From: an uncultured Dysgonomonas sp.
Lineage (GTDB): Bacteria > Bacteroidota > Bacteroidia > Bacteroidales > Dysgonomonadaceae
Length of the DNA stretch: 64,000 nt
Direction: 5' to 3'
Assembly (NCBI RefSeq): GCF_900079725.1
Contig: NZ_LT599032.1
Location: forward strand, 2,014,209 to 2,078,208
How positions within the stretch are numbered: the first letter of the stretch is position 1; every line of letters begins with the position of its first letter. Position numbers and translations under genes: made by a program. The notes below the pieces were generated by a model. The model saw only the letters and a program-made list of their open reading frames with translations, was not told the DNA's origin and made no database searches. This document shows, piece by piece, positions 13,770-26,631 of this stretch.

Positions 13770-14633
13770 ATGACTATACCAACTCCTAATATAGAAAAAG
13801 CCTTGACCGAATATGAGAATTCTCAACAGAACTATATTTTACCTTTAGAAAAAGATGATTCATTTAAGGTACATTATATAGATAATGACAAAGAATTTAC
13901 AATAGGTATACCTGGCGAAAACAGCATCATCTTTGTGATGAAAGGCAAAATACTCGTTCAGAAAGACATTTCTGAGCATAAGTTATTCGATGATAATAGT
14001 ATGTTTTTTATATCTAAGGTATTCGGTCCATATAAAAGTATTACTAAAGAAAGTACCATATATATAGAATTAAAGTCTGATAACCTTCTCCCGTTTATCG
14101 ATCAGGTTTTGCTGAATCAGATCGTGTCACTATACGCCCCAGACCCGATAGAGCTCAATAAATTACTCATAAAAAAAACTTTACGCTATTTCTTGTCGGG
14201 AATTATCTATTACAGACGAAATAAGATATTTTCAAAATATGTATATGACATCAAGAAAAAAGAGTTTGTCTTCCTGATGCGTACATTATATGACAAACAG
14301 ACTCTTGCGGCTTTCTTCTCCCCGGTACTACTTAGCCAAAATCATTTCAGGATAGGTGTGCTAACTAATTACACACATAACAGTACGGTGAAAAGCCTGG
14401 CTAAGAACTGCTTTATGACCACCAAAACCTTTACGAGAAAATTTAAGTCTGAATTCGGGACTACTCCTCATAAATGGATTGTGCTTCAGAAAGTGAAAGG
14501 ACTGGAATATTACCTGGCCCATCAAACCGTGTCGATAGACAAAGTCCTGTCTGAATTCCATTTCTCCAACATGGCCGAACTTCTCCAGTTCTGCGACAAA
14601 CACAACCTAAAGACTAAATTATTAAGCAAATAG
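13770..14633 (+). CDS. AraC family transcriptional regulator
   Basis: A 287-residue cytoplasmic DNA-binding protein. The N-terminal part (about 1-110) looks like a cupin-type sensing domain, and the C-terminal ~95 residues form the double helix-turn-helix of the AraC family: SLAKNCFMTTKTFTRKFKSE covers the first HTH, and GTTPHKWIVLQKVKGLEYYL leads into the second (SIDKVLSEFHFSNMAELLQF). The second HTH is degenerate relative to the usual GF.d.syFsR pattern. It lies 269 bases upstream of a fimbrillin gene on the same strand, and the interval holds tandem 12-base repeats, so it probably activates that gene. The inducer is unknown. Confidence 0.82.
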   Translation: MTIPTPNIEKALTEYENSQQNYILPLEKDDSFKVHYIDNDKEFTIGIPGENSIIFVMKGKILVQKDISEHKLFDDNSMFFISKVFGPYKSITKESTIYIELKSDNLLPFIDQVLLNQIVSLYAPDPIELNKLLIKKTLRYFLSGIIYYRRNKIFSKYVYDIKKKEFVFLMRTLYDKQTLAAFFSPVLLSQNHFRIGVLTNYTHNSTVKSLAKNCFMTTKTFTRKFKSEFGTTPHKWIVLQKVKGLEYYLAHQTVSIDKVLSEFHFSNMAELLQFCDKHNLKTKLLSK

Positions 14634-14643
14634 AGATTTTATC

Positions 14644-14676
14644 TTTGTCCCTTTTAATAGATATTTTGTCCCTTTT
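14644..14676 (+). promoter_or_regulatory. Tandem direct repeats, putative AraC-type operator
   Basis: TTTGTCCCTTTT occurs at 14644-14655 and again exactly at 14665-14676. The 21-base period is two helical turns, as expected for two AraC-family subunits binding one DNA face. The pair lies just upstream of the predicted fimbrillin -7 element, where a -33 box is missing. TATCTTTG at 14640-14647 overlaps the first copy and could alternatively be a promoter element. Confidence 0.5.
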
Positions 14677-14701
14677 TCTTATTATGGGGCATAAATATTC
14701 G

Positions 14702-14722
14702 CATTACTTTTGTGCCGTAATG
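14702..14722 (+). promoter_or_regulatory. Fimbrillin promoter -7 element with inverted repeat
   Basis: TACTTTTG (14705-14712) fits TAnnTTTG. It lies within a small perfect inverted repeat CATTAC (14702-14707) and GTAATG (14717-14722). Transcription would start near 14718, leaving a leader of about 185 bases. No TTTG is found at -33, which suggests dependence on an activator. Confidence 0.45.
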
Positions 14723-14902
14723 TAAATGTAAGCGTATTGATTTTTGCGGACAAACTGTAACCCTCTTTACAAATCATAAAAGAGAATATTTTCCGAATCC
14801 GTTTAAAAAGGAACAGAGAAGAACCGGCCATTCATCTCAGGAAATTCATTGTCTCAAAACTCACAAGGAAAATCAAAAAAGTATCTATTAAACCTATTAA
14901 AA

Positions 14903-16039
14903 ATGAATTCAAAAAAACTATTTCTATTTGCAATTATTATTGCACTTTTCACTGTGTCATGCGATAAAATAGAAGAAAGCGATGCACCTGTTGTAGTAGC
15001 AGGCCAAAAAGCTAGCATAAGTTTACAAATTTCAGGAACATCACAAACTAAGGCCTCAGGCAATCCTACTCAAGAAGATAAAGTACTCAAACTAGATGCA
15101 TTTGTTTTTAATGCTGACGGTACACTAGAAGCTATAAAAAGCCTTACAAGCCAAAACAACAGTATAACTAAACTGGACAACATCGCTGTAACCAGCGGGG
15201 CTAAAAAAGTATTCGTTCTGGCAAACTATGCAGGAGATGTATCAGCAATAAAGACTCTTACTGAGTTGCAAAAAATCACATCGGATCTCAAAAATGAAAA
15301 AGAAAACGGACAACTGACAATGTCGACAGATATGATCGAAATCTCTGTTCTTCCGGGCAAGAATTATCTAGGCTACTCTACAAGTCCGTCCGATGGTACT
15401 TCTCTGGAGCCTCACACTTTCGTTCTTAGCAGATTAGCAGCAAGAGTAAAAATAGAAGATATGCAATGGCAAAGCTCTGAATATACATTTGAGGAACCAA
15501 CAGCTTTCATCCTGAATGCAGTGCGAAACTATAATGTTAGCAGTCCTTCATTATCTTCTCTACCTGTTGATTATTACCAGGGATTTTCCGGAAATGGAGA
15601 TTTGTATCCTTCAACAAGCACAATATTGTCTGGCGCAGAGAACTTCTTAACTTCTCCTGCATCTAACAATAACACATACTTCTATCTTTATGAGAATCAA
15701 CCTGTGGATGGCAAGATATACCCTACAATGATCGTATTGAGAGCTAGAGTTAAACAAAGCAACAAATACATCAGTAATGTACCTGGACGTGTCGATGCTA
15801 ACGGCTACACATACTTCCCTGTAATTATAAACTTGGAAGGAACTAACTCTTCTGTATCAGGTGGAGGTTCTAACAGTCACCAATATGTAAAACGAAACAA
15901 TACATATAACATCAAGACTGTTGTAAAAGGTTTAGGAACAAGTAATCCTTTCAGCTCTGAAGCTCCGTCATCATTGAATGTACAGATTACAGTTGCACCC
16001 TGGGCTTTAACTATTTCACAAACCAGAATATTCGAATAA
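14903..16039 (+). CDS. Fimbrillin family (FimA/Mfa1-like) lipoprotein
   Basis: This is a major-subunit-type fimbrial protein of 378 residues. Its signal peptide ends in a lipobox with Cys21 (FTVSCDK), so it is lipidated and exported. The N-terminal domain shows the fimbrillin pattern: SISLQISGTSQTKAS, LDAFVFNADGTLEAI and KKVFVLANYAG. The segment LSRLAARVKI resembles the arginine site at which fimbrillins are cleaved before donor-strand polymerisation. The start at 14903 gives a proper lipoprotein signal; the longer frame from 14849 would add 18 unsuitable residues. No anchor or tip subunit genes follow; the next gene is convergent. It is probably controlled by the AraC regulator just upstream. 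Confidence 0.85.
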   Translation: MNSKKLFLFAIIIALFTVSCDKIEESDAPVVVAGQKASISLQISGTSQTKASGNPTQEDKVLKLDAFVFNADGTLEAIKSLTSQNNSITKLDNIAVTSGAKKVFVLANYAGDVSAIKTLTELQKITSDLKNEKENGQLTMSTDMIEISVLPGKNYLGYSTSPSDGTSLEPHTFVLSRLAARVKIEDMQWQSSEYTFEEPTAFILNAVRNYNVSSPSLSSLPVDYYQGFSGNGDLYPSTSTILSGAENFLTSPASNNNTYFYLYENQPVDGKIYPTMIVLRARVKQSNKYISNVPGRVDANGYTYFPVIINLEGTNSSVSGGGSNSHQYVKRNNTYNIKTVVKGLGTSNPFSSEAPSSLNVQITVAPWALTISQTRIFE

Positions 16040-16058: not shown

Positions 16059-16096
16059 AAGAGGCTCAATACATCGTTGTATTGAGCCTCTTTTTT
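16059..16096 (+). terminator. Strong intrinsic terminator after the fimbrillin gene
   Basis: AAGAGGCTCAATACA (16059-16073) and TGTATTGAGCCTCTT (16078-16092) form a perfect 15-base stem with a TCGT loop, followed by a T run. It may also stop minus-strand transcripts of the convergent permease operon, though the T tract on that side is poor. Confidence 0.88.
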
Positions 16097-16150: not shown

Positions 16151-17458
16151 TTATATTTTATTCGAGTATTTTTTAGAATTAAAAAAATAAGTTATCAATC
16201 CCAATATAACATTCATCAATCCGGCTAAACTCTCATAAGTATTATTAAGGAAAGCAAATATAATCATCCAGATAGCCACTATTGCAAATATAATTTGGAA
16301 AAACGGAAAAAACGGGCTCTTATAACCTTCAATAATCTTTCCCCTATTCCGATATCTTAAAATAAATACTCCCACAATAACCAATAAAGAAGAAAAGGTC
16401 AACAAAATGCCACAGTAAATCATTATCTGATTAAATGTTCCGGTAATAATTAATATAGAACTAATAGCGAACTGCAACCATAACGCTTTTACAGGAATTC
16501 CTTTTGAGTTATTTTTAAAATACCGCCATAGATGATGTCTTTCTGATATACTTGCTGTAACTCTGGGCCCAACCCATACCATAGCACTAATACCGGAAAT
16601 AAGCAATAGTGAAATTCCCGTGCTGAACATTTTCGCAAATCCGGGTCCTAGCATATATTCACTGGCAATAGTTCCAATATTCAATTTACCCACTAATTCC
16701 GATAAGGGTACATGACTAAGGAAAGTAATCTGTAGTAACGTATATAAGATTGTAACAATCAAAGTTCCTCCAATCAATGCAATAGGTAGAGATCTCTGAG
16801 GGTTTTTAAATTCTTCAGTTATATATGCAGCAGCATTCCATCCTGAATAAGAATAAGTAACATATATAAATGAAACAGCAAATGTCGCAGATGTAATTTC
16901 ATTCACATACGGCGATTCAAAACTAATCGCACTATTAGGTTCGGTTGGGACTATTACTCCTACCAGTATAATAACCAGAATCAGAAATACCTTAAAAAAA
17001 GTAGTTATATTCTGAAACTTAGAACTTGAATTTAGATTACGACTATGTATTAATGTTATTATTGCAATGAGAGCAATACAGATTATTTGGGGATACCCGG
17101 TTTTGACAGGAAAATATTCAGTAAAAGCTAAAGCGGACAATGCTATGGGAGCAGCAAAACCTACAGTTAACGATATCCACCCGGACAAATATCCTATTAC
17201 AGGATGATATATGCCGGAAAGAAAAGTATACTCACCTCCCGATTTCTTAAAAAAAGTTCCAACCTCGGCATAACTAAATGCTCCACATAATGCCAATATG
17301 CCGCCAAGTATCCATAAGGTAATAATTGAGGCTGTATTTGTTATACTTTCGAGTTGAAACCCGAGACTTGTAAAGGCCCCGGTTCCAATCATATTCGCTA
17401 CAACTAGCGATATACCAGTGTAAGCACTGATCTTAGTTATCTTCTCTTTGTTCATCAA
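16151..17458 (-). CDS. APC family amino acid permease
   Basis: A 435-residue inner-membrane protein with about 12 transmembrane segments. The first helix carries the unwound glycine motif of the APC superfamily (SLVVANMIGTGAFTSLG), and the second segment has GGILALCGAFSYAEVG, typical of amino-acid transporters where the polar face meets the substrate. Substrate cannot be told from sequence. The gene begins 15 bases after the stop of the upstream lipoprotein gene and closes the six-gene operon led by a TonB-dependent receptor. In that context uptake of amino acids released by the operon's protease is the simplest reading. Confidence 0.85.
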   Translation of the reverse strand: MMNKEKITKISAYTGISLVVANMIGTGAFTSLGFQLESITNTASIITLWILGGILALCGAFSYAEVGTFFKKSGGEYTFLSGIYHPVIGYLSGWISLTVGFAAPIALSALAFTEYFPVKTGYPQIICIALIAIITLIHSRNLNSSSKFQNITTFFKVFLILVIILVGVIVPTEPNSAISFESPYVNEITSATFAVSFIYVTYSYSGWNAAAYITEEFKNPQRSLPIALIGGTLIVTILYTLLQITFLSHVPLSELVGKLNIGTIASEYMLGPGFAKMFSTGISLLLISGISAMVWVGPRVTASISERHHLWRYFKNNSKGIPVKALWLQFAISSILIITGTFNQIMIYCGILLTFSSLLVIVGVFILRYRNRGKIIEGYKSPFFPFFQIIFAIVAIWMIIFAFLNNTYESLAGLMNVILGLITYFFNSKKYSNKI

Positions 17459-17473
17459 AAATCAAACGTCTAT

Positions 17474-18331
17474 TTATTTTGATGATCTATGAAAATCCTG
17501 AAGTAATTTGAAAGATTGTACAGTGCTGTCTGCATTCAGATATTTATTACGCAATGTCTTATAATTATCCAGAATATGCACACCTTTATAGTAAATAACC
17601 GAATCGACTTCCGCTGTAGGAACATGGTCTTTGGGATAAGTATAGACAAAGTTCCCCATTTCGGGCATAGAATATGTAGGTATTCTGAATGCGTTTCTTT
17701 CCACAAATTTACCAGTGGATTCAGTTTCCAAAAATGCATTAATAAAGAAGTCTACAGCATAATCGGGATAGCCAAAAAGATAGCCGTATCCTCTCCAACG
17801 CTCAAATTTGTCACTGCATTCAATTGTACTGACAACTACATTAGGATCAGTCCCCGGTACTAATCCAAACTGGCCAAAAAATTCTTCTTTAGCTTTCAAT
17901 AAGCTGTCCAGTGAACTTTTTCTAACAACACTCAATTGCAATATTCTATTTTTCTTCTGAGGGCTTTGATATGGAATAAGCACTAATTGAAGATCAGGGA
18001 TGCTCGATTTGTTTATAGCTTTCACAATCGCGTATAACCGATCCAGATATTTTCCATGAATAGATCTGTCCAATATTTTAGAACTTGAGACCTTTGTACT
18101 ATCATTATTCGCTATCGGATAATTGAATGTAACCAACGAGCTCATTGGCTTTAGATCCCCTAACAATGTAAACAAAGCCTCATTGTCAAGACCAACCTGT
18201 AAAACTGAATCTATAAAATGTTGTTCGTAAGAATCGAAAACTATATTTGCCAATGGCTTTACTCTTTGTGAACTACATCCTACAAATATGGTAACAAGCA
18301 ATGTCAATAAAGATATTGTGATATATTTCAT
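17474..18331 (-). CDS. Lipoprotein of unknown function in the protease operon
   Basis: A 285-residue lipoprotein: the signal peptide ends in FVGCSSQ with Cys19 as the lipidation site. I do not recognise a domain. The C-terminal half contains an aromatic- and glycine-rich block (RGYGYLFGYPDYAVDFFINA) and a segment with an FVYTYP motif. It lies 2 bases after the stop of the C25-like peptidase gene and 15 bases before the permease gene, so it is surely part of this operon. A periplasmic or outer-membrane partner of the peptidase is a reasonable inference, nothing more. Confidence 0.75.
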   Translation of the reverse strand: MKYITISLLTLLVTIFVGCSSQRVKPLANIVFDSYEQHFIDSVLQVGLDNEALFTLLGDLKPMSSLVTFNYPIANNDSTKVSSSKILDRSIHGKYLDRLYAIVKAINKSSIPDLQLVLIPYQSPQKKNRILQLSVVRKSSLDSLLKAKEEFFGQFGLVPGTDPNVVVSTIECSDKFERWRGYGYLFGYPDYAVDFFINAFLETESTGKFVERNAFRIPTYSMPEMGNFVYTYPKDHVPTAEVDSVIYYKGVHILDNYKTLRNKYLNADSTVQSFKLLQDFHRSSK

Positions 18332-18333
18332 TT

Positions 18334-20538
18334 TTATTTAGATTTTAGTCTGTTTATACTTTTAGTTGTTTCATTGATTAAATCGCTGTCTTTTTCAGTA
18401 GACAAAATTTCGTTTAACTTTTTAATAAGATATCCTTTTCTATATGAGTAGTTAAACCATCCCAGTGCTTCTATCGTTACAGAACGGATTGCTTTTTCGT
18501 TCGCAGTATCAGCAGCAATTGACAATAGCGTATCTATACCATCCGATGCGGGCTGGTTACGAAATCTTGTTATATCAAAGATTCTGTTCTTCGCCTTTTC
18601 CTCCGTGTTGGTAATCAATGAAAGGCTACTATTCTTACTTTTCTGTGCAGATTCTATATCTTTCAGCGTTTTGTCCAGCATATCACGGCTGTAAAATGGT
18701 CTTCCTGCAGCTTGTAATTCTAATTCTGCTTTCAGTTTCTCGAGATTGACCATTCTTAGCCCCGATGAAATTTTAAAGTTTATACGTTTTGAAGTATTAT
18801 CGTTCAATATAGCTTTCGCAAGAGATGGAATTAGCTTTTCCGACCCGTTCTTTACAATATATTCTGCTGCGTAACGGCGGGTTAGTTCGTAGCTGTCGGA
18901 CATGGCAGCAGCTAAAACCTCAATAAAATCATCATTGTCTATTCTCGATAATAACTGTAAGGCTTCAAGTCTTACAACCATATCCTGAGATTGGAAATAA
19001 GTCTGTTTCAACAGATCTGAAATGTTTCTGTAATCGTTATCAAAAAGGACACGTAGTGCTATTGTTTGTATATCTGCATCTGCTTCCGATAATGCTTCCT
19101 TCCAGTATGCGATATCATTCTTATGGATTGTAAGCGCTTCATTGATATTCAAATTCGAATTCAGATTCTTCGCAAAATGATACGTTGGATCTCCGATGAT
19201 ATGTGTTTCAAGAAAATGGACATATTTCCCCCATAATCCGATGCGAATACCACTGTTTAGTAAGCCTAAAAATTCATCAGGCCATTTATCCTGAATAGTA
19301 TTTACTGTATTTCCTTGTGTAACGATGGTTTTACCACTATTAAATAAATATGCGCCGGCAATGTATTCATCCTCATAGAACGACCCGTTGTAGCAGGCAT
19401 CAAACATCACAAAACGTGCATTAGGTGTTATTTTATAAATATCCCTTACCAGAATATCCAGAGAATCATTCAATATGGAATCCTGGGCAAGTATTGCCGG
19501 ATCAAATGCCTCCTCGCACCAAGACCGGGGAACATCTAACGATTTCATATAATACTCAATTGTCTCTTCTTTATCCTTTCCTTTTTTTACAGCTCCGGAG
19601 ATTTTACTTCGTAGATACAGTTTTATGTTTTCTTTAGATGTATTTACATCGCTTCCCTCTTTATATCCGTTTATATACTGATAATCATTCGATCCATGAT
19701 GATGAAATAACATTACATCTAAATCAGGGCGTTGAACCTCATTCAGCCAATAAGCTTTCATTGGCCAATAAGAATCGAACTCCATGAATTTCACAAAATT
19801 ATTTGCAGCAAATAAATTAGGGAATTGCTCCTTTAGTGCAAGTTGCTCTCCGGACCATGCTACTCTCGACTCTGAATTGTATCCATGTCCTCGTGCTACA
19901 GTCAGATTATCGATAATATTACTTTTTTCAGAAGAACGTATATCTACTACTTTTTGTAGATAGGCTCGCAACTGGCTGTATTTATCCGTTTTACCGTTTT
20001 CAAGAGGTTTTATTCGTGCTGAATAAATATTAGAAGAAAGTACTTGTTCCGAGTCTGCCCGAAGTGAGTAATAAAAGTATAAAGGTTTTATCGAATCTTG
20101 TTTTAGATAATCGAATTTTAAATCAAAATCATCGTAAAACCTGTCAGAAGGCACACTCGACTGTTGCCAGTTTCGTTTCTGGTCCATTTTGAATGCTGAG
20201 GTTAAATGCTGGGCATCGCGTAGCATCGCAATTGGAATATCTCCAACCAGAACAGTACCCTCCAGTGGTGCTTTTTTATCATTATATAGTTTGATTAATA
20301 TCTCGCGTATCTCATCAGGCTTGGTCCATGTATGAGATATTATATATGTACCTAATCCATCATTCTCGATGATCTTCTTATATTCGTCTACTTCTTTTTT
20401 AGCTTCTGCATAGCTTTTACTATCAATTATTATTGCAAAAGTTGTCTTCGTATTAATTGATGGCTTCACAATGCTTTGCCCGCATACTATGCTGGATAAT
20501 AGCAAACTAATGGCCAATAACAAATAAGTTTTTTTCAT
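18334..20538 (-). CDS. Gingipain/C25-like cysteine peptidase with C-terminal HEAT repeats
   Basis: A 734-residue exported protein (signal peptide about 1-20). The core resembles peptidase family C25 of clan CD. A strand TFAIIIDS near residue 33 is followed by GTVLVGDIPIAML (94-106) and SDRFYDDFD (131-139). The expected catalytic His lies in the hydrophobic-HG motif LFHHHGS (His281-Gly282), and the Cys in FVMFDACYNG (Cys382). THIIGDPTYHF (445-455) matches the late LGDP block of gingipains. From about 470 to the end there are helical HEAT-like repeats (for example LLSRIDNDDFIEVLAAAM). No type IX C-terminal secretion domain is evident. A perfect hairpin precedes the gene. Activity and target are unknown. 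Confidence 0.72.
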   Translation of the reverse strand: MKKTYLLLAISLLLSSIVCGQSIVKPSINTKTTFAIIIDSKSYAEAKKEVDEYKKIIENDGLGTYIISHTWTKPDEIREILIKLYNDKKAPLEGTVLVGDIPIAMLRDAQHLTSAFKMDQKRNWQQSSVPSDRFYDDFDLKFDYLKQDSIKPLYFYYSLRADSEQVLSSNIYSARIKPLENGKTDKYSQLRAYLQKVVDIRSSEKSNIIDNLTVARGHGYNSESRVAWSGEQLALKEQFPNLFAANNFVKFMEFDSYWPMKAYWLNEVQRPDLDVMLFHHHGSNDYQYINGYKEGSDVNTSKENIKLYLRSKISGAVKKGKDKEETIEYYMKSLDVPRSWCEEAFDPAILAQDSILNDSLDILVRDIYKITPNARFVMFDACYNGSFYEDEYIAGAYLFNSGKTIVTQGNTVNTIQDKWPDEFLGLLNSGIRIGLWGKYVHFLETHIIGDPTYHFAKNLNSNLNINEALTIHKNDIAYWKEALSEADADIQTIALRVLFDNDYRNISDLLKQTYFQSQDMVVRLEALQLLSRIDNDDFIEVLAAAMSDSYELTRRYAAEYIVKNGSEKLIPSLAKAILNDNTSKRINFKISSGLRMVNLEKLKAELELQAAGRPFYSRDMLDKTLKDIESAQKSKNSSLSLITNTEEKAKNRIFDITRFRNQPASDGIDTLLSIAADTANEKAIRSVTIEALGWFNYSYRKGYLIKKLNEILSTEKDSDLINETTKSINRLKSK

Positions 20539-20571
20539 CTCTATTTTAGTTTTTTTGATCTTTATAAATGA

Positions 20572-20609
20572 AGTAAAGGAAATGAAGTGATTTCTTCATT
20601 TCCTTTACT
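20572..20609 (-). other. Perfect intra-operon hairpin
   Basis: AGTAAAGGAAATGAAG (20572-20587) and CTTCATTTCCTTTACT (20594-20609) form a perfect 16-base stem with a six-base loop. It lies in the 78-base gap between the DUF6850 barrel gene and the peptidase gene, 7 bases after the barrel stop. No T run follows on the minus strand, so it looks more like an mRNA stabiliser, processing site or partial attenuator than a full terminator. Confidence 0.7.
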
Positions 20610-20616
20610 GAATTAT

Positions 20617-22170
20617 TTAGAAATTACATCCTATTGATATTTGTAATCGATTTCGATTACCAAACTCATAAGAAGTAGCTTTCGTATATCTAAATTCAGC
20701 CTTAGCAAACAAATTGGCGAGCATATCTCCTTTTATCTTTTGTGAATATGTTAGATTTGCGCCCAAGGAATAAAAGTTGGAATTAAGATAATCTGTATCA
20801 GTCTGTTCAAATTGGGTAACAACTATATATTCAGGATGGCTGCCATTGTAACTGTATCCTCCCGACAGATTGTTATTATAACTATAGTCAGCACCCAGTA
20901 ACACTCTTCTCTTTAATACATCATCTGAAAGAATAAAATTCTTTTTTATTCTGAATTGAACAATAAGATTTTCGGCATTTTTTTCAGATCGCGGAGTAAG
21001 ATAGACATCTTCTTTGTTTGTATATTTCACTCCAATTCCGAATTTCCAATTATATTCCAAGTCTCGGTCAATTGTAAAATCATAATCGAGCGATGCTTGT
21101 TGAAGCTTATACTTTGAGCGTATATCTTTATATATAGTTATATATCCACTCTGATTCTCAGTATTATCATATTGTGTTATAGCTTCAATTCCGTCTATTT
21201 TCTTATCTGCATAATTCAGGGTTAAATAGTGAGTGGTTTTATTGAGCCGTTTATTCAATTGCAACTTACCACTCCATATTTTACTCTTGACTGTTGCATT
21301 TTGTTCAGGCGATGTAAATGATATTTTTACATCCTCTACTTTATAATTATAATTTGATGAAAATAGCAAATTGAAGAATCCCTGATAATTATACTGAAAT
21401 CCTCCCCCAACGCCATTTCCCTCATAATTTGTTGTGCGCCCGGATCCCAGTCCCCTGGTAGCTGTCCCCAATCCATACAAAGCATAGTAGTTCTGATCTA
21501 CATAGACATTCACATTGGACATATTCGACTCTTCCTTTAATGTTTGGAAATCAAAATTTGCACCTACGTGATGGTTATTATTGATAGAGTATACAACTCC
21601 CGGTTTCACCTGTAATATATAGAAGTAGTTTTCGGTGCGAATATCCCGTTGCTTGGCTCCACTAGCTGCATTGTAGCTACCTTCTAGCCCCAGGGACAAT
21701 CTATTCCATATTTTAGGTGTCACCACTTTAAATTGTAAATCGTAGATCTGATTGTTCCACTTACTCATATTAGTATCTGCAACCATATATGGCATATCGC
21801 GGTACGGATCAATAATAGAAGCATTAAATAGGGCATCTTTAATATTAGAACGAGTATAGTTAAACTTACCCCAAGCATATACATTTCCCACAAATACAGC
21901 TCCTTCAACATCAAACTTGAGATCATTGATTTTCTCTCCTGTTTGTGGACGATGGAAACCACCCGAATGAGAATCGTATGAGAATTTTACCTCCGCGTAA
22001 TCTATCGGTTTATCCAGTAACAAACCGGCGGCATTATTTGTATACATCCATTGGCTTCTATCCTTGAATGTTTCAAATGCAGCAGGAGTGTTTATTTTAT
22101 CTTGTCCGTACGCAACCATTGAGAATGCAAATAGGATAATTGCCGAAACAAGTTGTTTAATATTCTTCAT
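20617..22170 (-). CDS. DUF6850-type outer membrane beta-barrel protein
   Basis: A 517-residue exported protein with signal peptide cleaved after AYG (about residue 22). Most of the length is alternating hydrophobic/aromatic strands typical of an outer-membrane barrel, ending in LQISIGCNF with a terminal Phe as the barrel-assembly signal. Early residues RSQWMYTNNAAGLLLDKPIDYAEV and the order TonB receptor, DUF4876 lipoprotein, barrel fit the DUF6850 family. No function is established that I can cite. The start lies 25 bases after the DUF4876 gene. It may form a second pore or surface partner of the receptor. Confidence 0.75.
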   Translation of the reverse strand: MKNIKQLVSAIILFAFSMVAYGQDKINTPAAFETFKDRSQWMYTNNAAGLLLDKPIDYAEVKFSYDSHSGGFHRPQTGEKINDLKFDVEGAVFVGNVYAWGKFNYTRSNIKDALFNASIIDPYRDMPYMVADTNMSKWNNQIYDLQFKVVTPKIWNRLSLGLEGSYNAASGAKQRDIRTENYFYILQVKPGVVYSINNNHHVGANFDFQTLKEESNMSNVNVYVDQNYYALYGLGTATRGLGSGRTTNYEGNGVGGGFQYNYQGFFNLLFSSNYNYKVEDVKISFTSPEQNATVKSKIWSGKLQLNKRLNKTTHYLTLNYADKKIDGIEAITQYDNTENQSGYITIYKDIRSKYKLQQASLDYDFTIDRDLEYNWKFGIGVKYTNKEDVYLTPRSEKNAENLIVQFRIKKNFILSDDVLKRRVLLGADYSYNNNLSGGYSYNGSHPEYIVVTQFEQTDTDYLNSNFYSLGANLTYSQKIKGDMLANLFAKAEFRYTKATSYEFGNRNRLQISIGCNF

Positions 22171-22195
22171 CTTTTTCTTTTTTAATCTTCAATCT

Positions 22196-23446
22196 TTATT
22201 TATTGGTCAACGTATGATTCCAACTTGGCATCTTTGATCCATAACGTCTGAATTCAGGAACCACTCCTCTATCGAAGTCCTCTGTACTATTATTGAGGTC
22301 TTGCAAAATAGGTGTCCCATCTTTATGCTCTCCTATTTTTTTACGAGCCACTCCCTGTGAATTATACGTAGCCCCAACATATGTCATACCTTTGTCTAGC
22401 GCTGCCGGAACACGTTTAGCTGTCAACATACTCTCATTATGTCCTGCTTCTACTGCATCTATAACATAGGTTATCGGAATTTTGGCATACAATTTGGTCG
22501 CCGTGACAGATAAATCCTTGGTTCGCATAGACAGATCATTTACAGGGTCGTAAACATCCCCCGCAAGAGGTTTAAAAATAACGTATGCTCCTCCAAAGAC
22601 AGATGTCAAATATTGAGGTAAACTTCCTTTTGTCTCTAATCCGTCATAGAATACATGCGTCATATCTATGGCTGGCTGATCCGGATAATTCGCGTTATCC
22701 ATATTGAACTCAAATTCAGAGGAAAATCCATTTATCGGGGAGTTCGGATTATACTGAGGCAGCTGGTGGTTAGCAGCAAACTGAGAAATAACACACGATT
22801 CTCCCGGTGCCAGAGGGTAATCTGTCCCATTTCCGGGAAATTTCCATACACGTTCTGCATACACATATCTATCTCCATCTTCTTCCGGCCATAGAGGAAG
22901 TTTTGTTGTAGCTGTAAGTGGGGCTAAATTGGCAAAGTGGACTCCATCGAGATATATTATCTGATCTTCAGAGTTGTTATATATTTCGTAAAATTGATTT
23001 CTAAAATAGAAATTTGCAGTACCTGCATAGAATATTTCCTTAAACATCAAATCATTCTTACGCAATCCATTTACAGTTATATCTATCGTAGCTCCGTCTT
23101 CAACAACCGGGAAGTTTACTTTATTTCCATTCAATAAATAAGTATCATGGGAATCATCGATAAACTCTCCGCTTACGTCAATCTGATAAATGCCCGGAAT
23201 AACTTTCAATTGCGTTATTGAACTTTCATTAAGTTCGGAGGTATAGACAGTACCGTATTTTACATTTTTAAATGTAATAGTAAAACCTTCGTATGAAGTT
23301 ACTCCGGGAACTAAGGACTGTACACTAATCTTCACATCTATTTCGCTAACTTCCCCTGCATCGGATGCTTCTTCAAAAGAATTGCATGCCATAAATAAAA
23401 GCGAGCTAAATAACAGGATATATGCTAGTATGTTTTTTGTTTTCAT
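22196..23446 (-). CDS. DUF4876 lipoprotein, TonB-receptor partner
   Basis: A 416-residue lipoprotein with Cys21 in the lipobox LLFMAC. After an N-terminal carboxypeptidase-regulatory-like beta-sandwich (about 35-135; VEDGATIDITVNGLRKNDL), the protein continues with the segment FKEIFYAGTANFYFRNQFYEIYNNS, the hallmark of DUF4876, which resembles a lamin-tail-like beta fold. Such proteins occur beside TonB-dependent receptors in Bacteroidetes and are probably surface lipoproteins that bind the ligand. Its ATG lies 26 bases after the receptor stop. The family call is fairly firm; ligand unknown. Confidence 0.8.
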   Translation of the reverse strand: MKTKNILAYILLFSSLLFMACNSFEEASDAGEVSEIDVKISVQSLVPGVTSYEGFTITFKNVKYGTVYTSELNESSITQLKVIPGIYQIDVSGEFIDDSHDTYLLNGNKVNFPVVEDGATIDITVNGLRKNDLMFKEIFYAGTANFYFRNQFYEIYNNSEDQIIYLDGVHFANLAPLTATTKLPLWPEEDGDRYVYAERVWKFPGNGTDYPLAPGESCVISQFAANHQLPQYNPNSPINGFSSEFEFNMDNANYPDQPAIDMTHVFYDGLETKGSLPQYLTSVFGGAYVIFKPLAGDVYDPVNDLSMRTKDLSVTATKLYAKIPITYVIDAVEAGHNESMLTAKRVPAALDKGMTYVGATYNSQGVARKKIGEHKDGTPILQDLNNSTEDFDRGVVPEFRRYGSKMPSWNHTLTNK

Positions 23447-23472
23447 CTTCTTATTACTGGTTTATATTACTT

Positions 23473-26343
23473 TTACAATGTTAGAGATAGTTCCATACCA
23501 AAAAAGAACTGTTGCTGTTGTTTCCTATTCCTGTAAGTACTAGGTTCCCGGTTAGATCTAATTTTGTAATAAGTTCGAAACATATTATTGGCAAAGAATG
23601 AGACCCGCATATAATTGCCTAATTCCTTCGTTACATTTATATTAAATGTATATGCAGGAGGATAATTCTCTCTGATATAGTATTTATCATTAACCTGTCG
23701 GATTAATGGCTTAAATTCAGCTTCATCTTTCCTACCCGGATCAAAATCATATACTAATCCATCATTCTTCGATATATATTTTACGGGAATAGAGTCGTTT
23801 CCGTAATTGTACCATTGCGATTCGTTCCAGATAGCCTGCGCTGTCAGAGTAACTACAAAACCTATTTCAGGAATATTGTGCGTGGCTCTCAATGTAGTAG
23901 TAAATCGCTGGTAGTTATTCTTTTCCATTCCTTTCTCATACAATGCTATATGAGTCCGGTTTTTCTCACCCGTTCCGCTATTACCATCAAAAAAGGTATA
24001 ATCGCTCGAATAACTTTGATTCCTGATCCACATACCATTTATAGAAAATGCAGTCCTGATAGCATCAAAACGTCCCAAGTTCAGATCAAATTCAACTCCT
24101 TTAGCTTTAGATTGTATATTATTAGTCGGTGTATAATATTTTGCTAAAACAGGTAAGGCCTCTGTTTGTACAATCTCGTCATTAATCCTTTGGTAAGCAT
24201 AATAGGTGACCGGTTTGAAACTATTTATTGTTGGAGACATGGAGTAACCATCTTGTAGTCTGTCAATGAAGCCGGTTACTGATAAGGTAGCTTGCTTTAT
24301 ATTTAAGTCAAAACCGACCTCAGCTTTTTTACTTTTAGCTATTTTCAGGTTTTTATTCTGCGTATCGAATACGCGCGTAGTTGTAATATATAATCTTTCA
24401 CTTTCAGGGATAGCCTCATTGCTTAACTCATCCATATTTACATATTCAAAATATGCTAATTCGGGATATAGAAACAGGGTGCTCGGGGCTTTTGCTGTTA
24501 CCCCATATCCTCCCCGGATAGAGAGTTTTTGAGGAATTATTTCGAAAGAAGCATTTACCCGGGGAGAGAAAACTTCTTTTACTACCGATATTTTATCATA
24601 TCTGAGTCCTCCGGTTATCTGAAGTTTGTGGTTTCCAAAGCTGTATCTAAAATTTTCTTCGGCAAATAAGCCTAATTGTTTAACATAGGGAATATCTTTA
24701 TAACTTCTTGGTCGGAAAGAGGCATTTGGAGCACTTAGATTCCTATAAGGAGGCTCTGTCTGGCTAAAAGTTTTACCAGCTCCTTCATTTCCGTCAGTTT
24801 TGAAATCAGCCCCGACTAAGATAGTATGGTTTGTATTTCCCAATCGCTTAAAGAGAGTACCCATCAGTTTAGCAAACACATTCACTTCTTTTCCTTCTAT
24901 ATCATATCTACCCTCATAACTAGCAGGCAGTTGTACTGCATATAAATTAGCATCGGCATTACTGAAGTTTGTAATTTTATTACCATTATTGTCAAAAATA
25001 TCGACTCCGGGTCTGTTAGACAAAACAGTTCCGTCATTTGTCGTCATCGAATAGGGAGATGTCGCATTTGTATACAATTGGGACATATAACTCTTTTTGG
25101 ATGTATAAGAGGCAGATACAACATATCGTATATTCGACAACCAAGGGGTAGCGATCCGTAAGATACCATTCGTATTAAGGGTCCCGCCAATGTTATCTCC
25201 TTTTTGATGCAACTTGGTTATTTCATCGTCGGGATTCTGCCTTCTTCTATCAGCACCATAAACAAAATCAATTGATGTATTTGTAAACAATCTATCAAAG
25301 AACCGATTAGAATAAAGAACTTTAATATTACTACGTTCGTAAGTTTGATATGATTCTGTAGGATCATTGGTGTTATGCGCATAATCTCCACTTACATTTA
25401 ATGCACCTTTATTACCTCCCAGATTGAATCCTGATGCAGCAGAAAATTGATAAACATTTGAATTGGTCTTGGCTGCAACTCGTAGAGGTTGATAACCTGC
25501 TTTTGAATTTATAATAACAGCACCGGAGGTGAGGTCGCCATATTGTACAGAAGGAATACCCCTTATGATCTCTACCGATTCTATATTATCAGTAGAAATC
25601 AGCCGTAGATCCGTTCCGCCGGTTGGAGGACTACCACCGGCTAAAGTTGTTGTTGCTCCGGCTACAGAAGGACTCATTAACTGCAAATTAGCATTATTAG
25701 AGATAGGTGAGCCATCTTTGATAATAGATAAACCAAAAGTATTCATCATAGAAACTCCCAAGTTATCGGCCGAGACTTCTCTAATTTTAATCTGCTTAGC
25801 ATTTGTCAGATCAGGATTAGATGTCAGACCTCCCGGCAGTAATGATGCAATATCTGATAAGTTAGTTGCCTGAAGGTGATCAATCGCGTTACGGGATATG
25901 AAAGATGCTGTAGATTGTCCGGCTTTGTTATTAGTGGCAGTAACAACTACTGTCGATAATCTGAAGTTCTCTTTTTTCAATGTAAATGATAATGAAATAT
26001 CTTTATTGACGTCGAGCAATGTGTCAATCTCGAGCATACCTACGTACTTGGCTCTAAATCTTACTTTTCCGGAAGGAATATTCTGCATGGCAAAATATCC
26101 ATCCTCATTAGTTACTGTCCCCATCGCATATTCAGGAATAGAAACCGTTACATATTCCATCCCTACCAATTTTTTTTGGTCACTTTCCTCGAGAATTTTT
26201 CCGGAAATACTATATTTCGGACTTTGAGCATTAGCAAAAGATATGCAAGAGAAAAAGAGGAAGAGAATGGAAGCTATGATTTTGAATGGAGAGTTTAATT
26301 TAATCCAAATATTTTGGATATTCTTAATCTTTATCTTATTCAT
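23473..26343 (-). CDS. TonB-dependent outer membrane receptor with carboxypeptidase-regulatory-like domain
   Basis: A 956-residue outer-membrane transporter and first gene of the six-gene operon. Signal peptide to about 39, then a CarboxypepD_reg-like beta-sandwich (about 44-130), the plug domain (STVVVTATNN onward, with VEIIRGIPSVQYGDLTSGAV marking its end near 290) and a 22-stranded barrel closing with FFGMELSLTL. It is not a SusC: no SusD gene is next to it, and its partners are DUF4876 and DUF6850 proteins. The substrate should be something too large for porins; the downstream protease and permease hint at peptide or protein, though metal or cofactor complexes are also possible. Confidence 0.92.
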   Translation of the reverse strand: MNKIKIKNIQNIWIKLNSPFKIIASILFLFFSCISFANAQSPKYSISGKILEESDQKKLVGMEYVTVSIPEYAMGTVTNEDGYFAMQNIPSGKVRFRAKYVGMLEIDTLLDVNKDISLSFTLKKENFRLSTVVVTATNNKAGQSTASFISRNAIDHLQATNLSDIASLLPGGLTSNPDLTNAKQIKIREVSADNLGVSMMNTFGLSIIKDGSPISNNANLQLMSPSVAGATTTLAGGSPPTGGTDLRLISTDNIESVEIIRGIPSVQYGDLTSGAVIINSKAGYQPLRVAAKTNSNVYQFSAASGFNLGGNKGALNVSGDYAHNTNDPTESYQTYERSNIKVLYSNRFFDRLFTNTSIDFVYGADRRRQNPDDEITKLHQKGDNIGGTLNTNGILRIATPWLSNIRYVVSASYTSKKSYMSQLYTNATSPYSMTTNDGTVLSNRPGVDIFDNNGNKITNFSNADANLYAVQLPASYEGRYDIEGKEVNVFAKLMGTLFKRLGNTNHTILVGADFKTDGNEGAGKTFSQTEPPYRNLSAPNASFRPRSYKDIPYVKQLGLFAEENFRYSFGNHKLQITGGLRYDKISVVKEVFSPRVNASFEIIPQKLSIRGGYGVTAKAPSTLFLYPELAYFEYVNMDELSNEAIPESERLYITTTRVFDTQNKNLKIAKSKKAEVGFDLNIKQATLSVTGFIDRLQDGYSMSPTINSFKPVTYYAYQRINDEIVQTEALPVLAKYYTPTNNIQSKAKGVEFDLNLGRFDAIRTAFSINGMWIRNQSYSSDYTFFDGNSGTGEKNRTHIALYEKGMEKNNYQRFTTTLRATHNIPEIGFVVTLTAQAIWNESQWYNYGNDSIPVKYISKNDGLVYDFDPGRKDEAEFKPLIRQVNDKYYIRENYPPAYTFNINVTKELGNYMRVSFFANNMFRTYYKIRSNREPSTYRNRKQQQQFFFGMELSLTL

Positions 26344-26631
26344 TTTTTTATTGTTATTTTCACAAAAATTAAAACACCATGCAAAATTCGTTCTTTCTTT
26401 TATCTATATAAATACCTAGAAATTGCGATTTATAATATAAAATATCATTATTTATAGCTATTCGACCGATAGCATTTTTACTATTTAACATAAAATGAAA
26501 AGAAAAATCAGAAAAAAGAAATGAAAAAAGACAAAGATTGTAAGAATCATCTTGTAAAATAAATCTTTTGAGAAAACATTGTATTCCCTAAATATATAAC
26601 TTCGTATAGTAATATTTAAAAAACAAAACTG
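26344..26631. other. Divergent intergenic region
   Basis: This 288-base, very AT-rich interval must hold promoters for the receptor operon (minus) and the DUF1304 gene (plus). I see TATAACTTCG just before the plus-strand gene, a weak -7 candidate, and no exact consensus on the minus strand. No palindrome suggestive of a Fur-type site was recognised. Confidence 0.35.

Follow-up and report, generated by a model that had tools for sequence, protein, structure and literature searches.

INTRODUCTION

In Pectobacterium and in Escherichia coli, the gene for a TonB-dependent receptor (TBDR) lies beside a protease gene (FusA-FusC and YddB-PqqL, respectively), and the proteases are described as periplasmic and iron dependent (PMC6793856). 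Fus-type clusters are described there for Proteobacteria, and some FusA homologues are mentioned as having proteases of other kinds as neighbors (PMC6793856). Here, we describe a six-gene operon of an uncultured Dysgonomonas sp. in which a TBDR gene is linked to the gene for a predicted gingipain-fold cysteine peptidase. The operon lies in a stretch of 64,000 nucleotides (contig NZ_LT599032.1, positions 2,014,209 to 2,078,208), which is called the window in its full length below, and we tentatively regard it as a metal-acquisition system.

Related loci have appeared in expression studies of other Bacteroidota. Under dipyridyl, the PG1019-22 genes of Porphyromonas gingivalis were upregulated 20.8- to 214.5-fold, the BT1933-39 genes of Bacteroides thetaiotaomicron (HEAT, DUF4876, and TBDR) 3.5- to 7.4-fold, and the BT3625-33 genes (DUF4857, DUF4876, and TBDR) 36.7- to 128-fold; PG1019-22 and the hmu genes were upregulated together when iron was depleted (PMC10434189). 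A P. gingivalis DUF4876 gene stood with HmuY among the strongly negative values of a comparison involving hemin, the direction of which we infer (PMC10470040), the lipoprotein PG_1019 changed alongside HmuY and flavodoxin (PMC12119571), and PG_1019 and PG_1020 were upregulated with hmuY in a PG_0686-related comparison (PMC10101095). In the ZigA-HutT zinc-histidine system of Acinetobacter, ZigA acts together with the uptake of histidine (PMC8456098).

Our literature searches returned nothing on BT1934, BT1935, or BT1937, no paper linking C25/HEAT-repeat periplasmic proteases with TonB-dependent iron uptake, and no paper joining COG0523, zinc, and TonB-dependent uptake in Bacteroidetes. The available literature on protease-associated import in bacteroid bacteria contained no title on a gingipain-type system.

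RESULTS

Organization and conservation of the six genes

The six open reading frames (ORFs) were all located on the minus strand, and the successive gaps in the ORF list of the window were 26, 25, 78, 2, and 15 bases, exactly as a preliminary description of this DNA had given them. From the receptor end, they encoded a 956-amino-acid (aa) TBDR with CarbopepD_reg_2 and Plug domains in Pfam (23473..26343), a DUF4876 lipoprotein, also placed by Pfam, with acidic residues behind the lipid cysteine (22196..23446), a DUF6850 protein predicted to be an outer membrane beta-barrel (20617..22170; Pfam E value, 1.6e-119), the gingipain-fold cysteine peptidase with C-terminal HEAT repeats, assigned from an AF2 model, VIA structure comparison, and conservation (18334..20538), a 285-aa lipoprotein from an unnamed family, characterized here by the neighbors of its relatives (17474..18331), and an amino acid permease of the L-type (LAT) branch of the APC superfamily that matched AA_permease_2 in Pfam (16151..17458). 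None of the six genes matched a SusD/RagB partner of the polysaccharide utilization locus (PUL) type in Pfam. The peptidase and the DUF4876 protein each had a single match in their own genome (E value of 1e-3 or lower).

To describe the surroundings of the peptidase, we used 79 loci that were picked by similarity to it and that included near-duplicates; because these loci were related and partly duplicated, the counts given here are descriptive. The loci came from Bacteroidota, from Ignavibacteria-type genomes, and from one Neomarinimicrobiota bin. The TBDR, DUF4876, and DUF6850 genes (the trio) were consecutive and on one strand in 72 of the 79 loci. As for the other seven, five lacked trio genes in the stretch (L010, L024, L050, L065, and L079) and two failed on spacing only (L009 and L059). 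The peptidase gene followed DUF6850 directly, with a gap of -250 to 450 bases, in 62/79 loci, and it was present in one copy in 41 loci, two copies in 9, three copies in 27, and four copies in 2. The lipoprotein gene was found in 7/79 loci and the permease gene in 5/79, the latter only alongside the former. The window's six-gene order recurred in L006, L011, L047, and L056, and L157 had this order plus a second lipoprotein copy. In genome G153, the first five genes were in L155 and the permease gene was in L088; in L009, the lipoprotein and permease genes were placed ahead of the receptor gene. The six genes are a genuine unit. The proposal that they form a single system had named its own test, namely, adjacency of the peptidase, lipoprotein, and permease genes to the receptor set in relatives, and this adjacency was observed.

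We also sampled 149 genomes of the order, the Dysgonomonas genome itself included, and detected DUF6850 in 24 genomes and the peptidase in 6. In all 6 genomes with a peptidase, DUF6850 was on the same contig as a peptidase gene (about 0.1 kb apart in five genomes and 3.4 kb apart in one); one extra peptidase copy was located at the end of another contig. Eighteen of the genomes without a detected peptidase yielded 20 DUF6850 stretches, and 12 of these contained an ABC-DUF4857 cassette, for which the L099 copy alone was checked with Pfam. The cassette was on the opposite side in L103 and L110. It was also found with the peptidase: in L047, the six genes were followed by ABC-TM-DUF4857, and in L050, the peptidase gene was followed by the same cassette. 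As a separate observation, L108 (9511-16751) had M16 and S46 peptidase genes downstream of a trio that lacked the gingipain-fold enzyme.

The predicted gingipain-fold HEAT peptidase

The preliminary description had called the protease C25-like and had assigned the receptor, DUF4876, DUF6850, and APC permease genes to their families. Pfam bore out the last four labels; in the case of the peptidase, Pfam found HEAT_2 alone, and there was no match to Peptidase_C25 or to M16 in the window protein. A weak Peptidase_C25 match was obtained with 3 of 49 relatives (best E value, 3.7e-4). The predicted structure agreed with the C25 label. Specifically, residues ~29 to 460 of the AF2 model (pLDDT, 94.2) matched the gingipains, with VIA Z scores of 30.0 and 29.8 to RgpB and 29.0 to Kgp and root mean square deviations (rmsd) of 2.7 to 2.9. 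The best match was 4ief_B (Z score, 30.0; rmsd, 2.7; 294 residues), and the next family in the comparison was separase, with a Z score of ~16. Identity to the gingipains was ~14 percent in the structural alignment. Residues ~465 to 734 of the model matched HEAT-type solenoids. Sequence profiles were less informative: the full peptidase profile found mostly HEAT-type repeat proteins and no gingipains in the PDB, and a profile of the catalytic domain alone found no chain there.

His281 was present in 146/146 sequences and Cys382 in 145/146 by alignment column, the remaining Cys being displaced by the alignment; this count covered the sequences other than the window copy (L001) and three ORFs of 1,419, 1,445, and 360 aa. 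Based on this conservation, His281 and Cys382 are the putative catalytic dyad. Two of these ORFs, in L068 (2433-6692; 1,419 aa) and L073 (10001-14338; 1,445 aa), were about double length and resembled two fused peptidases. A lipobox-like motif was detected by a regular expression at the N terminus of 8/149 peptidases, and the 60 rows that were inspected by eye were mostly of the Sec type. Pfam recognized no secretion tail in the window peptidase. Because the N termini were mostly of the Sec type and Pfam found no secretion tail, the peptidase is probably periplasmic.

Loci with several peptidase genes showed a regular arrangement. In a FastTree phylogeny with local support values only, from which ten near-duplicate or own loci were excluded, the first copies of 18 triple arrays grouped together, as did the second copies, and the third copies fell with many single copies and with the window peptidase. 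Across 24 triple loci, we found near-fixed residues that were specific for the position in the array: E/E/H at residue 280, beside the His; D/S/S at residue 386, near the Cys in sequence; and K/N/D at residue 108. These residues fit a possible division of labor among the copies.

The receptor and its two partners

A single-sequence search of the PDB with the receptor gave no match. When a receptor profile was used, the list of matches was headed by Cir and by siderophore and FepA-type receptors, and 17 of the 25 nearest solved relatives were siderophore/colicin-I-type or B12 receptors. FusA was not among the 25 PDB sequences matched at an E value of 1e-3 or lower, and FusA itself was not compared directly.

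A lipobox-like motif was found by a regular expression in 61/76 DUF4876 homologues, and 59 of those 61 had at least one acidic residue at positions +2 to +8, which suggests that the DUF4876 lipoprotein is probably surface exposed. The family had a solved relative, 4Q1Z (E value, 1.2e-156), and the Lamin Tail Domain was matched in 12 of 24 cases. Single DUF6850 relatives weakly matched FadL/Toluene_X and OMP_b-brl, and the DUF6850 profile found nothing meaningful in the PDB.

BNR/YCF48-like proteins were encoded near the receptor or peptidase gene in L096, L097, L099, L104, and L142 and likewise in the Ignavibacteria-type loci L052, L057, L060, L065, L067, L071, and L078. In Pfam, the L099 protein matched PSII_BNR as well as a type 9 secretion tail, and these proteins are possible surface partners. 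One protein cluster (#4) had been considered as a divergent peptidase; this assignment was rejected because its members were BNR/YCF48-like by eye and the L099 relative matched PSII_BNR.

Sister operons without the peptidase and their zinc-related neighbors

The 285-aa lipoprotein matched no Pfam family, and its structure model, built with eight sequences, was of low confidence (pLDDT, 49.2). The nearest solved chains of the permease were b(0,+)AT1, xCT, y+LAT, and a bacterial transporter. Relatives of the lipoprotein were detected in 2/149 genomes of the order sample, 9/101 of the family sample, and 19/395 of the phylum sample (thresholds of 1e-10, 1e-10, and 0.001, respectively; the Dysgonomonas genome is counted each time). 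We fetched 20 wider contexts of the lipoprotein gene, excluding those known to lie beside a peptidase gene. Besides the Dysgonomonas genome, 18 genomes of the phylum sample had a relative of the lipoprotein; stretches with wide flanks were obtained for 15 of these, and G482, G517, and G628 were left out. Four family-sample loci without an adjacent peptidase were among the 20 contexts, and five with a peptidase were fetched separately.

The full trio was present in 10/20 contexts, and L137 added a DUF6850 gene at a contig end (profile scores above 60 bits). No peptidase was found in the 20 contexts, which was partly due to how they were chosen. A COG0523 motif was detected in 8 of these peptidase-less contexts (L135, L139, L142, L143, L144, L147, L150, and L151) versus 2/79 peptidase loci, a difference for which the Fisher P value of 2.6e-5 is only a guide, since the loci are related and partly selected. 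In an NCBIfam scan of five of the COG0523 proteins, four best matched ZigA, with scores of 482 to 568 bits against a cutoff of 600; the 482-bit match was with a gene cut by the edge of the fetched stretch, and the fifth protein belonged to another branch.

In L150, which is from the window's family, two COG0523 genes were followed by TBDR, DUF4876, DUF6850, lipoprotein, and permease genes on one strand. L151 had one COG0523 gene ahead of the trio and the lipoprotein gene and no permease gene, and genome G196 held both this COG0523 version and a peptidase version (L158). In L142, the permease and lipoprotein genes were present with the trio and a COG0523 gene and without a peptidase gene. That the permease also occurs where there is no peptidase (L150 and L142) speaks against a role confined to the products of proteolysis. 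L139 contained additional MerC, ZIP, CDF, and ABC genes.

Other relatives of the lipoprotein gene showed gene fusion or decay. In L115 (1465-3081), a relative and a class B acid phosphatase (HAD) domain were joined in one protein, and broken copies were found in L114/L134 and in L090/L093/L152.

A palindrome shared by receptor promoters

We examined 65 promoters for shared sequences. The palindrome AATACC-N8-GGTATT was found ahead of the receptor gene with at least 10/12 matching bases in 18 promoters (1.25 expected from shuffles) and with at least 11/12 in 11 promoters (0.1 expected). The enrichment was seen with a spacer of 8 only; any other spacer length between 2 and 12 gave no more than 4 promoters. 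The motif was derived partly from the data that were counted, in that L006 was among the 65 promoters and L155 and L157 were outside them. All three of these loci are from the window's genus and have a perfect palindrome. The window itself contains a degenerate version, AATCGC-N8-GGTATT (26411..26430, minus strand; score, 10/12), located 87 bases ahead of the receptor gene. The palindrome occurred in 12/47 promoters of peptidase loci and in 6/18 promoters of loci without a peptidase. In L150 and L151, in which COG0523 rather than the receptor gene comes first, the match was below 10/12.

A search of nine genomes returned 27 exact sites, compared to 5 for the pattern read backwards. Five of the 27 sites were the operons themselves (including those of Segatella and B. 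ihuae, L180 and L176), and at least five were located inside long ORFs (L162, L164, L167, L172, and L181); 7 of the 10 stretches in a later batch of sites were examined. No exact site was present in the genomes of L047 and L046. Several of the remaining sites preceded genes for outer membrane receptors. In L161 and L166, from the same genus as the window, the site was ahead of a TBDR gene with a His-rich neighbor, and in L186 (1-4002; genome G158), it was at the start of a second pair of receptor and DUF4876-like lipoprotein genes, as judged by eye. SusC-type genes of same-genus genomes followed the site in L160 and, by eye, in L187, and succinate dehydrogenase-like and TBDR-like ORFs followed it in L182 and L183, also by eye.

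Another group of sites was associated with methionine and cysteine genes. One same-genus genome had the palindrome between its metQ and metN genes (L163, 397-2685), and it was located upstream of pyridoxal phosphate (PLP) enzymes of Cys/Met metabolism in two such genomes (L169 and L174). It preceded the gene for an unnamed protein of 306 to 311 aa in L170, L173, and L171, and in L171 it adjoined a cystathionine-synthase-like gene on the downstream side. Thus, the palindrome is possibly a methionine/cysteine operator in Dysgonomonas-type genomes. The bases TA preceded GGTATT in 9 of the 18 receptor promoters and in none of L163, L169, L171, and L174; because the inner bases differ at the Cys/Met sites, the regulator there may differ as well.

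Hairpins and flanking genes

The 78-base gap ahead of the peptidase gene contained a 16-bp hairpin (20572..20609, minus strand), in keeping with the hairpin that the preliminary description had placed before the peptidase, and the fold was real (z score, -6.25). The stem was strong and had no clear U-tract in the window, and we considered a terminator at this position a weak idea. The matching gap was 32 bases in L155 and 45 bases in L157, and the two genes overlapped in L156. Past the permease gene, a 15-bp hairpin found by folding (16059..16092) is the probable end of the transcript. Genes for an AraC-type regulator and a FimA-type fimbrillin (13770-16039, plus strand) run toward the operon and stop at its permease side.

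DISCUSSION

The reading that we favor, although we place it somewhat short of an even chance, is that the operon is a metal-acquisition system in which a periplasmic protease frees the metal from an imported polypeptide or in which a metal chelate is imported. The receptor, the surface DUF4876 lipoprotein, and the DUF6850 barrel would import the metal-carrying polypeptide or metal chelate, and the gingipain-fold HEAT protease would cut the polypeptide in the periplasm. The 285-aa lipoprotein may be an accessory in metal handling, and the L-type permease would carry freed amino acids, or a metal-amino acid complex, into the cell. The metal would be zinc or iron and may vary between members. We favor a role in metal uptake because peptidase-less sister operons with the same five genes follow COG0523 genes (L150) and because iron chelation induces related operons. 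The case for zinc is based on the neighbors of the lipoprotein in peptidase-less operons, the case for iron on the published expression of related loci, and the case for sulfur amino acids, considered below, on the shared palindrome.

Other findings that we count for metal uptake are the strong iron-depletion response of the DUF4857-bearing BT3625-33 genes (36.7- to 128-fold), the DUF4857 cassettes of L047 and L050, and the palindromes of the same type before other TBDR genes (L166, L161, and L186). Periplasmic proteolysis is in turn suggested by the Sec-type N termini, the retained dyad, the presence of two to four peptidase copies in 38/79 loci, and the position-sorted triple arrays. A more specific version of the idea, which is possible but which we put forward with clear reserve, is that the operon is an independently arisen Bacteroidota counterpart of the Fus system: the trio would import whole metalloproteins or metallopeptides, perhaps zinc bearing, and one to four specialized periplasmic gingipain-fold HEAT proteases would digest them under a shared operator. 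In that case, the gingipain fold would act in metal piracy within the cell envelope.

Several observations weigh against metal uptake or blur its details. The passage of a polypeptide across the membrane is a presumed step. Dipyridyl is not specific for iron, and the identification of the HEAT protein of BT1933-39 with our peptidase is drawn from its annotation and from the Bacteroides xylanisolvens locus L042. The classical Fur box was not enriched in the 65 promoters (mean best match, 11.5 of 19 versus 11.3 in shuffles), and the palindrome, with other inner bases, stands before MetNQ and Cys/Met enzyme genes, which points to sulfur amino acids. With regard to zinc, no COG0523 gene was found beside a peptidase-lipoprotein pair in the 7/79 loci that have one, in the window, or in L155 to L159, and the genome of the window had a single cobW hit (E value, 1.3e-4) and no clear COG0523 gene. 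The choice of the 20 lipoprotein contexts was in part governed by the lack of a peptidase next to the gene, and three of them (L148, L152, and L153) contained neither the trio nor COG0523. In L149 (6397-11680), the lipoprotein gene is flanked by a fused FeoAB gene and, on its opposite flank, by ORFs that look transposase-like by eye, and the assignment of zinc is accordingly not firm. Since the link of the lipoprotein gene to COG0523 was seen only without the peptidase, zinc is tied to the sister operons and not directly to the window operon.

The preliminary description had preferred a peptide counterpart of a PUL, with capture of a protein or peptide, its cleavage, and import of the products. 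In the narrower form considered here, the receptor would capture the protein or peptide, the protease would cut it, and methionine, cysteine, or other amino acids would enter through the permease. A protease and an L-type permease do share one operon, and the receptor palindrome is also located between metQ and metN, before the Cys/Met PLP enzyme genes, and beside the L171 gene. However, the inner bases of the palindrome differ at those Cys/Met sites, none of the six genes is SusD/RagB, siderophore-type and B12 receptors dominate among the relatives of the receptor, and iron chelation induces related operons. In addition, L142 and L150, which have COG0523 and no peptidase, keep the permease and lipoprotein together with the trio. 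Scavenging of sulfur amino acids or peptides is therefore weakened but alive as an explanation and a serious rival, although we consider it unlikely. The alternative in the same description, in which a protein is made to give up its metal, is better supported than peptide nutrition, with zinc at least as likely as iron or heme.

A heme-based form of that alternative would resemble P. gingivalis, with the protease attacking hemoproteins, the receptor importing heme or iron, and zinc playing no part in the versions with a peptidase. The joint induction of PG1019-22 and the hmu genes, the strongly negative changes of the DUF4876 gene with HmuY in the hemin comparison (again with the direction inferred), the response of BT1933-39, the DUF4857 ABC genes behind the peptidase in L047 and L050, and the lack of a COG0523 gene beside any peptidase-lipoprotein pair are all consistent with it. 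Nevertheless, a peptidase with a Sec-type N terminus and no recognized secretion tail is probably not located at the surface, and the relatives of the lipoprotein adjoin ZigA-like, ZIP, CDF, and MerC genes; this explanation seems rather improbable to us. The peptidase might instead be a maturation or quality-control enzyme of the outer membrane complex. PorU is a gingipain-fold protein with such a role in type 9 secretion, and the peptidase shares its fold class and is strictly linked to the trio. This we find very unlikely, as most order-sample genomes with DUF6850 lack the peptidase (24/149 versus 6/149), and up to four diverged copies per locus suit the degradation of substrates better.

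The operon differs from each of the systems introduced above. It is like the Fus and YddB-PqqL systems in that a protease gene is linked to a TBDR gene, here with a consecutive trio in most peptidase loci. In contrast, FusC and PqqL are M16 metalloproteases, whereas the present enzyme is predicted to be a cysteine protease that combines the gingipain fold with HEAT repeats and is often encoded in two to four diverged copies, and the present operon has DUF4876 and DUF6850 partners. The protease fold (VIA Z score, ~30) and the conserved His/Cys pair are shared with the gingipains (C25) of the P. gingivalis gingipain/Hmu system, but our peptidase has a HEAT tail instead of a recognized secretion tail, is probably periplasmic, and is only distantly similar in sequence. 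BT1933-39, BT3625-33, and PG1019-22 share the TBDR and DUF4876 genes and the induction by iron depletion, and BT1933-39 also includes a HEAT protein; the available part of the report names no permease of the present kind for these loci (PMC10434189). The combination of a zinc chaperone and an amino acid permease in ZigA-HutT, which we set beside our loci by description, recalls L150 and L142, but that system has no trio and no protease. The window operon has no ZigA/COG0523 gene, in contrast to 8 of the 20 peptidase-less lipoprotein contexts.

If the favored reading is correct, protease-associated uptake would extend beyond M16 proteases and beyond Proteobacteria. The regulator that binds the shared palindrome would name the nutrient. 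Metal acquisition of this kind would also explain the iron-responsive loci BT1933-39 and PG1019-22, and it would provide a function for DUF4876, DUF6850, and the gingipain-fold HEAT family of gut, oral, and environmental Bacteroidota.

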